From positions 1 through 16,627 of the forward strand of contig DATKYS010000091.1 in the NCBI GenBank assembly GCA_035528375.1: 16,627 bases of DNA, written 5' to 3'. Source of the stretch: a bacterium. GTDB lineage: Bacteria; RBG-13-66-14. The first letter of the stretch is position 1. Every line of letters begins with the position of its first letter. Below, one piece after another: positions 947-16,627 of the stretch. The notes beneath the pieces were generated by a model. That model saw only the letters and a list, made by a program, of their open reading frames with translations, was not told where the DNA came from and ran no database searches. Made by a program: the position numbers and the translations under genes.

Positions 947-2271
947 TGGGCTTCGACGAGGCCCAGGCCTACCTCTACTCCTTCGCCGATTACGAGCGGA
1001 AGGACCGCTTCACCTACGACACGCGGACGTGGAACCTGGTCGCTTTCCGTAAATTCCTGGACGAGCTGGGCGCCCCCGACGGGGCGCTTTCCGTCGTCCA
1101 CGTGGCGGGGACGAACGGGAAAGGGGCGGCGGCGGCGGCCCTGGCGGCCCTTCTAACCGCGGGCGGAAAAAAGACCGGCCTCTACACCTCCCCCCACCTG
1201 GCGACCATCCGGGAGCGCGCCCGCGTGGACGGCGCGATGATTTCAGAAACCGACTTCGCCCGCCTCACCGGGAAGCTCAAAAAAGTTCAGGCAAAATCCG
1301 GCCACGGCGAAGGCGGCGGCTACCGCACGACTTTCGAGCTACTCACAGCCCTGGCGCTCCTCCACTTCGCCGAGGAAAAGGTGGAGTGGGCCGTGCTCGA
1401 GGTGGGCCTCGGGGGGAGGCTGGACGCCACCAACGTCATGGCGCCCACGCTGTGCCTATTCACGCGCATCGCCCTGGACCACGAGGGGGTGCTGGGCGAG
1501 GGGCTGGAATCGGTGGCGCGGGAGAAGGCGGGAATTTTAAAAGCCGGCGTCCCGGCGATTAGCGTCCCGCAGGAGGACGTCGTGCGGGGTATATTGGAGG
1601 CGCGGGCGGCGGAGGTCGGGACGGAGCTGCGTTTTCTGGGGGAAGACGATTTCGCGGGCCTCGGCTTGGACGGGGACCGCCGGGTGCTCTGGAACTCGAA
1701 GCCGCTGGCGCTCAAGGGGGATTTCCAGCGGGGGAATCTCGGTCTGGCGCTGGCGGCGTACCGATTTCTGGCCGGACGCTTCGATTTCCCCGCGGATGAA
1801 GATTTACTTTTACGCGGATTGACGGGGCTGCGCTGGCCGGGGCGTTTCGAGGTCGTGGGTGAAAAGCCGACCGTCGTCCTGGACGGCGGTCATAACCCGG
1901 CGGCGCTGTCGGCCATCTTTGGCGAGGTGCGGCGGCTGCCGGCGGAGCGCAGATTCCTCGTCTTCGGCGTTTCCGCGAACAAGGATATTCCCGCGATGTG
2001 CGCTCTGGCCGGGTCCTTCGACCGCATTTTTTTGACGGAGGCGGACAGCCCCCGGGCGGCGGCGGTGGAGACCCTGGCCGCGCTGCTGCCGGTGGAGAAG
2101 ACCGTTGCGGTTCCAGGCGGTCCCGTGGAGGCGTTGCAGGCGGCTTTGTCGGAATCACGGCCGGGGGATTTGATTCTGGTCGCGGGATCGCTGTACGTGG
2201 CGGGGGAGGTCAAGGCGCGGGCGGCGGAGCTGGGGCTGGACGGGTCGTTGGAGACGTGGGCCGCGCCGTGA
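946..2271 (+). CDS. folC: Bifunctional folylpolyglutamate/dihydrofolate synthase FolC
   Basis: Mur-ligase-family ATP-dependent enzyme that adds glutamate to dihydropteroate and/or folates; cytosolic, 441 residues, normal for the family. Seen in order: P-loop GTNGKG at 55-60 followed by Ala61 (family members usually have Ser), TSPHL at 81-85, FELLTALALLHF at 130-141, EVGLGGRLDATNV at 152-164, ALDHEGVLG at 176-184 and AREKAGILK at 191-199, then the Mur C-terminal domain with DGGHNP. The ATG overlaps the pdxJ TGA (TGATG), and protein similarity to the FolC N-terminus (helix ending in TWNL) begins directly after it, so longer in-frame readings that run back into pdxJ are rejected. Pairing of B6 and folate biosynthesis in one operon is plausible as cofactor supply. 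A hairpin with T6 ends the unit just downstream. Confidence 0.95.
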   Translation: MGFDEAQAYLYSFADYERKDRFTYDTRTWNLVAFRKFLDELGAPDGALSVVHVAGTNGKGAAAAALAALLTAGGKKTGLYTSPHLATIRERARVDGAMISETDFARLTGKLKKVQAKSGHGEGGGYRTTFELLTALALLHFAEEKVEWAVLEVGLGGRLDATNVMAPTLCLFTRIALDHEGVLGEGLESVAREKAGILKAGVPAISVPQEDVVRGILEARAAEVGTELRFLGEDDFAGLGLDGDRRVLWNSKPLALKGDFQRGNLGLALAAYRFLAGRFDFPADEDLLLRGLTGLRWPGRFEVVGEKPTVVLDGGHNPAALSAIFGEVRRLPAERRFLVFGVSANKDIPAMCALAGSFDRIFLTEADSPRAAAVETLAALLPVEKTVAVPGGPVEALQAALSESRPGDLILVAGSLYVAGEVKARAAELGLDGSLETWAAP

Positions 2272-2669
2272 GTGCTGCGACGGCGTAGGGGCGGACCTTC
2301 AGGTCCGCCCGTTTTTTATAAGGTAGCCCTCACCCTTAATCCCGTCGGCGCGCCGCTCCCACGGGGAGAGGGGGACAGGGTACCGCCGCGTTCTCCACGT
2401 TCGCGGCCCCGACCCTCACCCCAGCCCGTCGGCGAGCCGCTCCCTAAAAGGGAGAGGGGACCGCTGCACCCCTCACCCGCGGTTGCGATGACTTAGGGGC
2501 CGACCTTCAGGTCGGCCCGTCTTTTATGAGGAAGCCCTCACCCCTAGCCCCGTCGGCGCGCCGCTCCCACGGGGAGAGGGGGACGATGGGCCGCCGTATT
2601 TACGTTCCCGGCCTCGACCCTCACCCCAGCCCGTCGGCGAGCCTCTCCCTGGAAGGGAGAGGGGGGCCG
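2272..2669. repeat. Repeat array between convergent folC and sirtuin genes
   Basis: About 400 bases with no credible gene. It contains two REP-like hairpins (2289-2310 and 2497-2518, the second GGGCCGACCT/AGGTCGGCCC followed by GTCTTTT) and four copies of a second element that begins CCCTCACCC, runs through a GTCGGCGCGCC or GTCGGCGAGCC core and ends in GGGAGAGGG (about 2327-2373, 2412-2459, 2535-2582, 2618-2666). Hairpins and CCCTCACCC elements alternate. The array lies between two converging transcription units, where terminator-like sequences are tolerated or useful. Confidence 0.85.
2289..2317 (+). terminator. Intrinsic terminator of pdxJ-folC formed by a REP-like hairpin
   Basis: A perfect 10-bp inverted repeat (GGGCGGACCT at 2289-2298, AGGTCCGCCC at 2301-2310) separated by TC is followed by T6 at 2312-2317, eighteen bases after the folC stop. 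It is a member of the dispersed repeat family, so the terminator function appears to be supplied by a repeat copy. Confidence 0.75.
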
Positions 2670-3422
2670 TCATGCGAGGATTTTCGGCAAAACGCGGCCC
2701 GCCGGCTCGAAGAGCGACACATTGCACCGCTCCGTCAAGAGCGTGGGCTCGATGTTGACCTCGACCACGTACGCCCCGGCGCGGCGCGCCAACACCGGCA
2801 GGCTCGCCGCAGGCTGCACCTCACCCGAGGTGCCGACCACGAACATCAGGTCGCACCCCTCGGCGGCCCGGAAGGCGGCCTCGATCACCCGCCCGTCCAG
2901 CGCCTCCCCGAACCAGACCACCGACGGGCGCATGAGCGACGCGCAGTCCGGGCACAACGGCAGCGGGTCCGCCTCCCCCTGGGTGACCTTTTCGAGCCAG
3001 TGGCGGCTCCGGTCGTCGGTGGTCGGGCAGGAGAGGCATTGCTCGCGCCAGATGTTGCCGTGGAGCTCGAGGAAATTCACGGAACCGGCGAAGGCGTGGA
3101 GGCCGTCCACGTTCTGGGTGGCCAGGGTGAGGTGGACCCGCCCGGCGGCTAGGGCGATGGCCCGGTGGCCGTCGTTGGGCTCGACCTCGAGGAGCCTGTT
3201 CCGCCGCTCGCGGTACCAGCCCCAGACCAGGGCGGGGTTGCGTTGGAAGGCATCGAGAGTGGCCAGGTCCTGGGCGCGGAAGTTCTTCCACAGGCCGCCC
3301 TGGCCGCGGTAGGTGGGGACGCCGGATTCGGCGGACATCCCCGCCCCGGTGAAGACAACGACGCTCGCCGCGTCGGCCACACGCCGCCGGAGGTCCGTAA
3401 TCACCGCTTCGGTCGCACCCAT
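2670..3422 (-). CDS. cobB: NAD-dependent protein deacylase, sirtuin (CobB/SIRT5-like)
   Basis: Removes acyl groups from lysine side chains, consuming NAD+ and releasing nicotinamide and O-acyl-ADP-ribose. All 250 residues fit a single Sir2 domain: FTGAGMSAESGVPTYR (24-39) binds NAD, TQNVDGLH (102-109), catalytic His121 in ELHGN, zinc ligands Cys129/Cys132 and Cys157/Cys160, GTSGEVQPAASLP (197-209) and VEVNIEPT (220-227). Tyr70 and Arg73 (WYRER) match the Tyr-xx-Arg pair that in human SIRT5 and E. coli CobB recognises succinyl/malonyl-lysine, so desuccinylase or demalonylase activity is likely beside deacetylation. The ATG follows the nadB stop by seven bases with a GGGGGA ribosome site, so it is the second gene of a nadB operon. 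No cobalamin genes are nearby, so the symbol only marks family. Confidence 0.93.
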   Translation of the reverse strand: MGATEAVITDLRRRVADAASVVVFTGAGMSAESGVPTYRGQGGLWKNFRAQDLATLDAFQRNPALVWGWYRERRNRLLEVEPNDGHRAIALAAGRVHLTLATQNVDGLHAFAGSVNFLELHGNIWREQCLSCPTTDDRSRHWLEKVTQGEADPLPLCPDCASLMRPSVVWFGEALDGRVIEAAFRAAEGCDLMFVVGTSGEVQPAASLPVLARRAGAYVVEVNIEPTLLTERCNVSLFEPAGRVLPKILA

Positions 3423-6854: not shown

Positions 6855-7241
6855 GGCCGCGCCGGGTTGCGACGATGTAGGGGCCGACCGACCGGTCGGC
6901 CCGCGGGCGACCGTGGACGGCCGCCCCTACGGGTTTGATACGCGGATTATCGTAGGGGCGGGTGTCCACACCCGCCCGTATTCACCCCTCTCCCCGGCCC
7001 GTAAGCAACCCTCCGCCCAGAGGGGGGAGGGGACATAAGGCAGCCCTCACCCCCATCCCCGTAGGCGAGCCTCTCCCACAGGGAGAGGGGGGCCTTTTCA
7101 CCCCTCACCCCAACCCTCTCCCTGGAGGGGGGAGGGGACGCTGCAACCCCGGCCCTCGCTCCGCTTCTTGCGACGACGTAGGGCGGCCCCGTAGGACGAG
7201 TCCTCTGCGGGCCGCCGCTTTACACCTCACCCCGGCCTCCG
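6855..7241. repeat. Repeat array between the mop and racemase operons
   Basis: No gene seen. Hairpins occur at 6881-6902 (GGGCCGACC stem, loop GACC), 6905-6926 (inverse orientation, one mismatch), 6956-6977 (GGGCGGGTGT/ACACCCGCCC, 10 bp) and 7182-7216 (nested: outer GGCGGCCC/GGGCCGCC, inner AGGAC/GTCCT). The second element appears at about 6985-7033, 7044-7090 and 7101-7138. The first two hairpins are back to back, head-on, as in BIME-type REP pairs. Confidence 0.82.
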
Positions 7242-11736: not shown

Positions 11737-12210
11737 ATGGCTGAAAATCAACCCAAACGTCTCACCGCGCCGCGGCTGCATTCATTCAAATACACCGGCC
11801 CGTACGCGTATTTCATTACCATCTGCACCTACTCCCGCCTACCTCTTCTAAAAGGCGAAACCCTTGTTTCCGGTATTCTAGCCTTATTGGAATCGGCGTG
11901 TGACGAGGAGAGTTTCCACCTTATGGCGTACTGTTTCATGCCTGACCATCTGCATCTTTTGGTCGCGGGCGAAGAGAAGAGCAGCCTCGCCAAGCTGGTA
12001 AAGAGGTTCAAGCAGAACAGCTCGTTTCATTACAGGGGAGGCGGAGGTTCCCACTTGTGGCAGAGAAGCTACTACGACCACGTTTTAAGGTGTGAGGAGG
12101 AAGTGGTCGAAGTTGCCAGGTACATTTGGGAAAATCCTATTCGAAAGGGTCTGGTTGAAACTATCAGTGATTATCCATTTTCGGGTCCCGTTGATTTAAT
12201 GCCCTCGTGA
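11737..12210 (+). CDS. REP-associated tyrosine transposase (RAYT, Y1/HUH family)
   Basis: A 157-residue Y1 transposase-like single-strand nuclease. The metal-binding HUH motif is His71-Leu-His73 within FMPDHLHLLV (67-76), and the catalytic tyrosine is most likely Tyr113 in WQRSYYDHVLR (108-118). The block VARYIWENPIRKGLV (126-140) is typical of RAYTs (usual form YIxxNPxRAGLV). Known RAYTs bind and cut REP hairpins and, unlike IS200 transposases, do not usually move their own gene; they are thought to have been domesticated for REP dispersal. Here REP-like hairpins flank the gene on both sides. The ribosome site is poor (GGAA about eight bases before the ATG), suggesting low expression. Codon use and about 50% G+C differ from purF and purM on either side, which fits horizontal acquisition. 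Confidence 0.9.
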   Translation: MAENQPKRLTAPRLHSFKYTGPYAYFITICTYSRLPLLKGETLVSGILALLESACDEESFHLMAYCFMPDHLHLLVAGEEKSSLAKLVKRFKQNSSFHYRGGGGSHLWQRSYYDHVLRCEEEVVEVARYIWENPIRKGLVETISDYPFSGPVDLMPS

Positions 12211-13420: not shown

Positions 13421-13467
13421 GCGCCGGGCGGTCCGAGCCCGTTCCGTGCCGCGTTGCGATGACGTAG

Positions 13468-13495
13468 GGGCCGACCTTCAGGTCGGCCCGTTTTT
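13468..13495 (+). terminator. Intrinsic terminator after purM formed by a REP-like hairpin
   Basis: Perfect 10-bp stem GGGCCGACCT (13468-13477) with AGGTCGGCCC (13480-13489), then G and T5 (13491-13495), 47 bases after the purM stop. Another repeat-family copy serving as a terminator. Confidence 0.7.
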
Positions 13496-13831
13496 GCCCC
13501 TCTCCCTAACCCTCCCCCCAGAGGGGGGAGGGGACATGCACCCCTCACCCCGGCCCGTCGGCGCGCCGCTCCCTGAGAGGGAGAGGGGATAGCTGCACCC
13601 CCCTCCCCGGCCCGTTGCGATGTCGTAGGGGGCGACCTTCAGGTCGGCCCGTTTTTGCCCCTCTCCCTAACCCTCCCCCCAGAGGGGGGGAACATACGGC
13701 AGCCCTCACCCCCATCCCCTCTCCCACGGGGAGAGGGGGGCCGCTACACCCCTCACCCGCGAGTGCGATGACGTAGGGCGGCCCCGTAGGACGAGTCCTC
13801 TGCGGGCCGCCGCGAATTGCGATTACGTAGG

Positions 13832-13996: not shown

Positions 13997-14063
13997 CTGA
14001 GTCCCTTTGCTCCGCGCTTTCGGTAACCAACTCCGCCCCGCTTCCACCCCCCGGAGGCGAGAT

Positions 14064-15392
14064 ATGCCCCTGACCTTCACCGGCGGCGTCCACCCCCCCG
14101 AATCGAAGCACCTCACCGAGGCCCGGCCTATCGAGCCCGCCGCGCGCCCTGCCGAGGTCGTCGTCCCCCTGTCGCAGCACATCGGCGCCCCGGCGACCCC
14201 CGTGGTCGAGAAGGGCGCCGTCGTAAAAGCGGGCCAGGTGGTCGGCGAGGCCTCGGGCTTCGTCTCCGCCCCGGTCCACTCGCCGGTCTCCGGCACGGTG
14301 AAGGCGGTCAGCGACCGTCCCCACGGTCTGGGCGGGAACCAGCCGGCGGTGGTCATCGAGCCCGCGGAGGAAGACGAATGGGCGCTCATGGAGCCCTTCA
14401 CCGACCTGGACCGGACGCCGGTGGAGAAACTGGTGGAGCGGATCCGGGATGCGGGGCTGGTCGGCATGGGCGGAGCGGCCTTCCCCACCCATGTCAAGGT
14501 CGTCCCCCCCAAGGGCCACACCTTCGACACGGTCATCCTCAACGGCGCGGAGTGCGAGCCCTTCCTCACCTGCGACCATCAGCTCATGCTCGCCAAGGGC
14601 GAGGAGATCGTCAAGGGCCTGAAAATCCTTTTGAAAATCACCGGGGCCCAGCGGGGCTTCATCGGCATCGAGGCCAACAAGCCGGACGCGGTCAAGCATC
14701 TGGAGGAGCTGACGCGCCACGCGGCCAACATCAACGTCGCCGTGTGCCGGGTCAAGTACCCCCAGGGGGCGGAGAAGCAGCTCATCAAGGCGATCACCGA
14801 CCGCGAGGTCCCCGTGGGCGGGCTGCCGTTCCAGGTCCGGGTTCTGGTGCAGAACGTTGGCACGGCCTACGCGGTGTGGGACGCGGTGGCGAACGGCCGT
14901 CCGCTCGTGGAGCGCGCGGTGACCGTCACCGGCCCCATCGTCAAGGAGCCGAAGAACCTGTGGGTCAAGGTGGGCACGCCGGTGGGCGAGCTCCTGGAGC
15001 GCTGCGGCGGGCTCACCGACGACGCCGCGCGGTTCATCCTCGGCGGGCCCATGATGGGACTGGCCCAGCACCGCTTCGACATCCCGGTGACCAAGGGCAC
15101 GTCGGGTGTTCTGTTCCTGCCGCCGCCGCGGCCCGAGGACTTCATCGCCACCCCCTGCATCCGCTGCGCCCGGTGCGTGGACACGTGCCCGATGAACCTG
15201 GTGCCCTGCGAGGCGGCCACCTTCTCCGAGGCGGGGAAGCTCGACGAGGCCGAGCTCTACGGCGCGGGGGACTGCATCGAGTGCGGCTCCTGCGCCTACG
15301 TCTGCCCGGCCCGGCGGCACCTGGTCCAGTCCATCAAGGTCTCGAAGCCGGCGGTGCTCAAGCGCCGCGCCGAGCGCGCCAAAGGGGCCTAA
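14064..15392 (+). CDS. rnfC: Ion-translocating oxidoreductase subunit RnfC
   Basis: Peripheral electron-input subunit of the Rnf complex, which couples ferredoxin:NAD+ electron transfer to Na+ or H+ export (or the reverse). 442 residues. Order: N-terminal TFTGGVHPPESKHLT (4-18); a lipoyl-like barrel with PATPVVEKGAVVKAGQVVGEASG (43-65); the flavin/NADH-binding core with GMGGAAFPTHVK (134-145) and NGAECEPFLTCDHQLM (160-175); then two 4Fe-4S motifs, Cys365/368/371/375 and Cys404/407/410/414. The start at 14064 is fixed by GGAGGCGAG (14053-14061) and the family N-terminus; a 19-residue upstream extension in frame is rejected. The usual next gene, rnfD, follows only after an A+T-rich insert of about 0.8 kb. 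Its stop codon overlaps a strong AAGGAGG. Confidence 0.95.
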   Translation: MPLTFTGGVHPPESKHLTEARPIEPAARPAEVVVPLSQHIGAPATPVVEKGAVVKAGQVVGEASGFVSAPVHSPVSGTVKAVSDRPHGLGGNQPAVVIEPAEEDEWALMEPFTDLDRTPVEKLVERIRDAGLVGMGGAAFPTHVKVVPPKGHTFDTVILNGAECEPFLTCDHQLMLAKGEEIVKGLKILLKITGAQRGFIGIEANKPDAVKHLEELTRHAANINVAVCRVKYPQGAEKQLIKAITDREVPVGGLPFQVRVLVQNVGTAYAVWDAVANGRPLVERAVTVTGPIVKEPKNLWVKVGTPVGELLERCGGLTDDAARFILGGPMMGLAQHRFDIPVTKGTSGVLFLPPPRPEDFIATPCIRCARCVDTCPMNLVPCEAATFSEAGKLDEAELYGAGDCIECGSCAYVCPARRHLVQSIKVSKPAVLKRRAERAKGA

Positions 15393-15397
15393 GGAGG
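15391..15397 (+). promoter_or_regulatory. Strong ribosome binding site at the rnfC stop
   Basis: AAGGAGG begins inside the TAA stop of rnfC and lies five bases before the ATG of the HNH-like gene. It is where one would expect the rnfD ribosome site, suggesting the insert took over the host signal. Confidence 0.8.
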
Positions 15398-15402
15398 CAA
15401 TA

Positions 15403-15786
15403 ATGGCTTGGAAGATAAAAATAGCTTTTTCGGAAAAAAAGAAAAAAATGGTGTGGAGTAAACATCCAGATAGTTGTGCTTATTGTTTAAAAGAAATACA
15501 TTACGACGATCACGGTAAGTGTCAAGCTAATCCACCTGAGACAGCATGGGAAATAGAACATGATGTACCTGAAACTGATGACTATTGGAAAATAACAGGT
15601 AAAGATCCTCATAATATAGACAATCTATGGCCGGTTTGTTGTGATTGTAATGATACGAAAGACGAACTATGGGGGTATGAGTATTTAGATATTCTCAAGA
15701 GTGAGGGAATTATGTGTGACGAAGCTGTGTATGGAGAAATATTATCAATTGCTGCAATTAGGAAGACAGAATTGTTAGATGAATAG
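15403..15786 (+). CDS. HNH-endonuclease-like protein
   Basis: 127 residues in an A+T-rich gene. The zinc-supported HNH (beta-beta-alpha-metal) pattern is readable: Cys25-x2-Cys28 (CAYC), then WEIEHDVPE with Glu52-His53 in the place of the usual Asp/Glu-His, then Asn74 in DNLWPV and Cys79-x2-Cys82-Asn83 with Lys86 (CCDCNDTK). This is the layout of stand-alone HNH nucleases that cut or nick DNA with a divalent metal. The N-terminus is lysine-rich (SEKKKK, 10-15), which could contact DNA. No signal peptide, membrane segment or toxin-delivery domain is seen. The ribosome site at the rnfC stop implies co-expression with the rnf genes. It could be a restriction-type, homing-type or toxin nuclease; the target is not predictable. 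Confidence 0.75.
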   Translation: MAWKIKIAFSEKKKKMVWSKHPDSCAYCLKEIHYDDHGKCQANPPETAWEIEHDVPETDDYWKITGKDPHNIDNLWPVCCDCNDTKDELWGYEYLDILKSEGIMCDEAVYGEILSIAAIRKTELLDE

Positions 15787-15805
15787 AATCCTATTTTAAT
15801 CTTGT

Positions 15806-15822
15806 TACATGATTTACATGTA
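15806..15822. promoter_or_regulatory. 17-bp palindrome upstream of the small acidic gene
   Basis: TACATG (15806-15811) and CATGTA (15817-15822) form a perfect 6-bp dyad around ATTTA, in the 62-base gap between the two insert genes and 26 bases before the second start. Its size and position suit an operator for a dimeric regulator, but no T-tract follows, so it is not a terminator. Confidence 0.4.
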
Positions 15823-15848
15823 GATATTTGCAGCCTAAGGAGAGGAAG

Positions 15849-16175
15849 ATGGACAAGAACGACTTTAGTATTTCTCTTGACATTATTGCTGTTGAGATTT
15901 TATTGAAATGTGTATTAGATGATATACAAAAAATGGATGTATACAAAGCAAGTTTGGTAAAGAAGGTATTTGAAAGAGTCAACGATAAAATTGAATTTTT
16001 GACAGGTGATGTTGAGAATATAATAAAAGATACATCATTTGCTAAGTTAAAAAAATTTGTATTTGAGCTTCTAGAAGGCTATCCGAACCAAGAGCTGATT
16101 GGTTATTGGCAAATTGATTATATTTTTGATGGGTTAAATTACGATGAATTAAAAAAGGATGGAATAATTGATTGA
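15849..16175 (+). CDS. Small acidic protein of unknown function, partner of the HNH-like gene
   Basis: 108 residues, not recognised. It is acidic (about 22 Asp/Glu against 14 Lys/Arg), appears mostly helical (long amphipathic stretches at 8-29 and 31-51, and around 64-77), and ends in an aromatic, acidic tail (GYWQIDYIFDGLNYDELKK, 85-103). There is no signal peptide or membrane segment and a single Cys (21). ATG 15849 is chosen because AAGGAGAGG (15837-15845) precedes it; a TTG start seven codons earlier would translate that ribosome site. Acidic small proteins encoded directly after a nuclease are often its inhibitors (immunity proteins), which is the favoured but unproven idea. Base composition matches the HNH gene, so the two probably arrived together. 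Confidence 0.65.
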   Translation: MDKNDFSISLDIIAVEILLKCVLDDIQKMDVYKASLVKKVFERVNDKIEFLTGDVENIIKDTSFAKLKKFVFELLEGYPNQELIGYWQIDYIFDGLNYDELKKDGIID

Positions 16176-16231
16176 TAGGTTTAAAACAACGCAGGATACC
16201 TTTTTTAACACCGTTCGGGAGTAAGCCCTAG

Positions 16232-16627
16232 ATGCCCAAAGACGACGACATCCCGGCCGAAGGGGCCACCGGGGAAGGCGAATCGCCCGGGGATACGGCC
16301 AAGCCTGCGCCGGAGCCCGCGCCCGAATCCGCCGAGAAACCGAAGCCCAAGCCCGCCGCCAAGCCCGTCCCCAAGAAGGAGCCGGAGAAGTCCTACCGCC
16401 TCTCCGTCTCCGCCGCCCCGCATCTCAAGAGCCCCGAGGACACCGCGAGAATCATGCGCTGGGTCCTGGTCGCCCTCCTGCCCGCCCTGGCGGGGGCGGT
16501 GTGGTTCCAGGGCTGGCGGTCGCTGATGCTCGTCGCCGTCGCCGCGGTGAGCGCCGTGGTCTTCGAGGCGGTCATCCAGCTCGTCACCAAGAAGCCGGTG
16601 ACCGTCATGGACGGCTCGGCGGTGGTG
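16232..16627 (+). CDS. rnfD: Ion-translocating oxidoreductase subunit RnfD, N-terminal part
   Basis: Membrane subunit of the Rnf complex carrying covalently bound FMN; the window ends after 132 codons with the frame open. Residues from about 56 match the RnfD start: SAAPHLKSPEDTARIMRWVLVALLPAL, a first helix, then a second ending in FEAVIQLVTKKPVTVMDGSAVV. Before it lies an unusual extension of about 53 residues made almost only of Pro, Lys, Glu, Ala and Gly, which most RnfD proteins lack. The ATG at 16232 has GGGAG (16217-16221) ten bases upstream; the next in-frame Met is inside the first helix, so the long start is preferred. Composition returns to G+C-rich at this gene, marking the end of the insert. 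Confidence 0.88.
   Translation, partial: MPKDDDIPAEGATGEGESPGDTAKPAPEPAPESAEKPKPKPAAKPVPKKEPEKSYRLSVSAAPHLKSPEDTARIMRWVLVALLPALAGAVWFQGWRSLMLVAVAAVSAVVFEAVIQLVTKKPVTVMDGSAVV

Follow-up and report, generated by a model that had tools for sequence, protein, structure and literature searches.

Classical HNH domains are known to occur as toxin domains accompanied by unrelated small immunity proteins, and standalone cassettes with toxin domains are also found (PMC3482391). HNH genes of another kind, the mob genes of T4, encode endonucleases with a distinct C-terminal region (PMC2988022). Here we describe a small HNH gene that is followed, on the same strand, by a gene for a small acidic protein, both located between rnfC and rnfD of a bacterium from a phylum represented by 14 genomes in our collection. 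The window analysed is a whole contig (C91; 16,627 nt, 67 % G+C) of a 2.63-Mb draft genome in 144 contigs.

The original prediction was that an A+T-rich block separates rnfC from rnfD, and this description is accurate. G+C content is about 0.32 over approximately 0.8 kb (about 15,401–16,205), compared with about 0.67–0.71 in the flanks and 0.70–0.76 in rnfD, and the block carries two well-formed genes. The rnfC gene (14007–15392, forward strand; first in-frame ATG at 14064) matches the Pfam families RnfC_N (2e-35), Complex1_51K (7e-52) and SLBB, and its orthologues across the genus and family are 71–94 % identical. Likeness to the relatives stops at the rnfC stop codon (TAA, 15390–15392), and immediately 3′ of it a short junction zone (15393–15402, forward strand) contains the Shine–Dalgarno sequence AAGGAGG. 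The HNH gene follows (15403–15786, forward strand, 127 aa), then a 62 nt intergenic stretch (15787–15848, forward strand) containing the Shine–Dalgarno sequence of the second gene, and then the second gene itself (15849–16175, forward strand), which encodes 108 aa from its ATG or 115 aa from an upstream TTG. The right junction zone (16176–16231, forward strand) contains, at some point within it, the border between foreign and native DNA; its final 30 nt are similar to the rnfD leader of the sister genome G003. The rnfD gene begins with an ATG at 16232 and its 5′ part runs to the end of the contig (16232–16627, forward strand), with a match to PF03116 at 16406–16627. Before its first conserved stretch, the predicted RnfD protein has a long Pro/Lys/Glu/Ala-rich N-terminal extension (encoded by 16232–16400), the length of which varies within the genus.

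Both block genes lie on the strand of the rnf operon and each is preceded by a strong, near-ideal Shine–Dalgarno sequence (CTAAGGAGGCAATAATG and CTAAGGAGAGGAAGATG). The ten bases GCCTAAGGAG are found upstream of both genes, a sharing that may be due to chance around the ribosome-binding site. G+C content at third codon positions is 0.27 and 0.26 in the two ORFs, against 0.93 in rnfC. In 5000 first-order Markov shuffles of the block, a longest ORF of at least 127 aa arose in 1.3 % of trials and a second ORF of at least 115 aa in none; two ORFs of such size are not expected by chance. There was no sign of a recombinase in the block, as had been predicted; terminal repeats were likewise lacking by inspection for repeats and Pfam search. 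No Rfam family matched within it, no structured RNA exceeded what was seen in shuffled sequences, promoter-like sites were at chance level and no terminator was found. Inspection by eye revealed no paired RYYYAAC/GTTRRRY sites of the attC type, and neither gene is flanked by long paired arms.

The first protein belongs, on sequence grounds, to the HNH endonuclease superfamily (PF01844) and is a putative nuclease, as its HNH-like features had originally suggested. Its Pfam match (E 8e-5, 23.1 bits) exceeds the curated cut-off of 21.4 bits, and the metal-binding and catalytic positions (C25-x2-C28, E52-H53, N74, C79-x2-C82-N83 and K86) are all intact. The best profile match is to a phage family of HNH endonucleases, phrog_2118 (1.4e-8). 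Pfam recognizes the HNH domain only within the 127 aa, with no delivery, pre-toxin or secretion domain. The protein downstream has no family at E≤0.001 in Pfam, PHROGs, NCBIfam, PADLOC or the PDB, and no immunity or antitoxin family was matched. The profile searches that had been called for placed one protein of the pair and left the other an ORFan. The second protein is acidic (pI 4.5), as predicted, but acidity does not set it apart, the HNH protein itself having a pI of 4.7. The structures of the two block proteins were predicted without homologues (pLDDT 34 and 43) and are uninformative and too poor for fold searching; the low-confidence model of the second protein suggests that it is probably mostly helical.

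Among the relatives that carry the operon, three congeneric and two from other genera of the family, both block genes are absent from the rnfC–rnfD junction in all five, and neither gene was found elsewhere in those five genomes. Relatives all carrying the two genes at native composition had been named as counting against an insertion, and this is not what is seen. The gap between rnfC and rnfD measures 839 nt in the window. The three congeners have 193, 248 and 169 nt, the two other genera of the family 45 and 875 nt, and other phyla mostly −10 to 46 nt with one example of 324 nt; within this family the spacer is therefore variable. The 875 nt spacer (genome G004, locus L007; 54 % G+C) contains no convincing ORF and shows the site filled with other material. 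A dispersed, palindromic, GC-rich repeat, GGGGCGACCGTCCACGGTCGCCC, is present in the spacer of all three congeners and missing from that of the window genome, which nevertheless holds 60 exact copies elsewhere; the congeners have 28, 12 and 1, and the single exact copy in G003 is the one in the rnfC–rnfD spacer. As the five relatives have a junction without both genes, we regard the block as a lineage-specific acquisition on this comparison, and the simplest reading seems to be that it took the place of a repeat-bearing spacer. A foreign insertion within the rnf operon is thus well supported by the absence of both genes from relatives and by their unameliorated composition. The clean empty site and precise ends that had been envisaged were not forthcoming, since sister species already differ in this hypervariable spacer and exact ends are undefinable.

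Several other features of these genomes may be recorded. A copy of GGGGCGACCGTCCACGGTCGCCC with one mismatch lies at 6905–6927 of the window, and GC-rich intergenic repeats, with PVGxPLPxGEG-like peptides in chance ORFs, occur at about 2300–2700, 6960–7200 and 13450–13750. A gene of the Y1 (IS200-like) transposase family (11737–12210; 157 aa) lies in a local dip to about 53 % G+C, has no obvious insertion sequence around it and may encode a REP-associated (RAYT-like) enzyme linked to the dispersed repeat. In G003 an A+T-rich island (contig C543, about 1300–3120, locus L061; 32–45 % G+C beside 65–70 %) contains an HNH gene of about 196 aa, the product of which is not a close relative of the HNH protein described here.

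It might be argued that A+T-rich DNA of another organism was wrongly joined into the rnf operon during assembly, given that the draft is in 144 contigs, that the window contig ends 396 nt into rnfD and that the single-copy block differs from the remainder of the genome. A fixed-length overlap between contigs is the trace left by a k-mer graph assembler at a branch. The end of the window overlaps contig C77, which carries rnfD onward, by exactly 141 nt at 100 % identity (16487–16627, equivalent to 21375–21515 of C77), placing the branch about 250 nt inside rnfD and away from the edges of the block; both joins of the block therefore lie inside one unbranched path. As the contig runs through the block into rnfD and on to this overlap, misassembly, which the original prediction had named as a possible source of error, is unlikely. 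A chimera would in addition require two false joins made independently and close together, with rnfC and rnfD left flanking the block in native order and orientation, and we consider it very improbable.

Whether the two genes travel together elsewhere was addressed by searches of phages, plasmids, viral contigs, species genomes (by pattern scans only) and whole genomes (193 for the HNH protein and 386 for its partner). No homologous pair was found, an absence that is weak evidence because the searches extended to little more than close relatives and a sample of genomes; within that range the pair was never seen elsewhere, an outcome that had been named as counting against a conserved module. 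In phages and plasmids, tblastn gave no match at E 0.01 for the HNH protein or at E 1 for the partner, and at E 10 a single plasmid-borne HNH protein of Tenacibaculum (35 % identity, E 2) located beside unrelated genes. Strict back-translated scans yielded no relatives of the HNH protein in viral and genome contigs or of the second protein in viral contigs. The pattern NLWPxCxxCN retrieved one distant HNH protein. Wider patterns were taken from an alignment (A1), rows 2–4 of which were written by us as bait, are not natural proteins and served only this purpose; they retrieved two jumbo-virus HNH proteins (286 aa) and one deltaproteobacterial HNH protein (140 aa), 26–32 % identical to ours, and none of the corresponding genes adjoins anything like the second gene. 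Matches to the second protein in the 386 genomes were at chance level and mostly inside long unrelated frames, and no locus fetched for them had an HNH-like gene. The nearest HNH proteins found are 26–35 % identical and lack a similar neighbour. The protein described here is a highly divergent new member of the HNH superfamily, encoded beside an ORFan.

Our tentative working hypothesis is that horizontal transfer brought in a nuclease-plus-immunity-like module, which would be expressed by read-through from the rnf operon. Its two genes would have come recently from an A+T-rich donor (a phage, a plasmid or another bacterium), and the block would have replaced the repeat-bearing spacer, a variable non-coding site at which a same-strand, ribosome-ready insert with no terminator may do little harm. 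The foreign composition, the absence from relatives, the intact HNH motif, the same-strand order, the strong ribosome-binding sites and the lack of a detected terminator are observed directly. Beyond these, we infer that the genes may be co-transcribed with the rnf operon, that the HNH protein may be a zinc-stabilized DNA nuclease, that the small acidic helical protein, encoded 3′ of the nuclease gene as immunity proteins are, may bind and restrain it, and that the pair may persist, in domesticated or selfish form, as a module of the nuclease/immunity type. The toxin-first order, the 62 nt gap, the small acidic second protein and the absence of a terminator are consistent with such a module. 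Several points count against it: no second occurrence of the pair turned up in the searches made, the partner matches no immunity or antitoxin family, no delivery or secretion domain is present, and the pI of 4.7 of the HNH protein would be unusual for a free DNase toxin of the colicin type, such toxins being basic. A functional pair is no more likely than mere passenger DNA. A phage or plasmid fragment carrying a small HNH gene and an ORFan may have settled, possibly transiently, in a tolerant spacer with no joint function for its genes, and we consider this a real possibility given the phage family that best matches the HNH protein, the lack of detected relatives of the ORFan, the unameliorated composition and a spacer filled differently in each relative (169–248 nt with the repeat, 45 nt or 875 nt). 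Against the passenger reading, both genes are intact, lie on the operon strand, are compactly spaced and have strong ribosome-binding sites, in a block that contains nothing else.

Two further readings assign a different role to the nuclease. One is a compact anti-phage system, or a subunit of one resembling Septu PtuB, SAVED-HNH or McrA. In its favour PADLOC gave weak hits to PtuB and SAVED-HNH (E 0.005–0.01), but these are not significant and involve only the generic HNH region. As the block encodes no ATPase, SAVED or other sensor domain (neither a PtuA ATPase nor a SAVED domain was detected in either protein by Pfam or PADLOC), the known HNH-subunit defence systems are without support, and we regard a defence function as improbable. 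That the HNH gene sits in an intergenic gap flanked by conserved genes, as T4 mob genes typically do (PMC2988022), could instead point to a homing endonuclease of the free-standing type, which would spread by cleaving rnf alleles that lack the insert and would carry a passenger gene. This is less likely, and in our view quite improbable, because no separate DNA-binding region is recognized in the protein and there is no trace of spread, the gene being missing from every other rnf locus inspected and having turned up nowhere as a family that spreads.

The block documents how one lineage of a bacterial phylum with few sampled genomes recently acquired genes at a hypervariable spacer. If it were a true nuclease/immunity module, it would add a new family of small inhibitors and would show how foreign genes can settle in a respiratory operon by way of a spacer. 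It is interesting to speculate, though we think it unlikely, that it represents an undescribed kind of minimal nuclease/inhibitor module, which would pair an acidic HNH enzyme with a new immunity-like family, settle in operon spacers and rely on host read-through in place of a promoter.

Compared with classical HNH endonucleases (PF01844; phrog_2118), the protein has the same C-x2-C, E-H, N, C-x2-C-N and K pattern yet is only distantly related to the nearest sequences found, is acidic and lacks an accessory domain. With the Septu PtuB and SAVED-HNH defence nucleases it has the HNH core in common, whereas an ATPase or sensor partner is missing and profile scores are not significant. The T4 mob genes likewise place an HNH gene between conserved genes, but the block has a second gene, no recognized DNA-binding region and no sign of spread among relatives. 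A nuclease gene with a small acidic gene downstream of it on one strand is an arrangement shared with the polymorphic toxin systems, in which a Tox-HNH domain is paired with a small immunity protein; unlike them, the block has rnf genes as neighbours with no full-length toxin nearby, no delivery or pre-toxin domain, a partner matching no known immunity family, and no homologous pair in the searches made. For these reasons the pair is not filed among nuclease/immunity cassettes, but it may still work like one.
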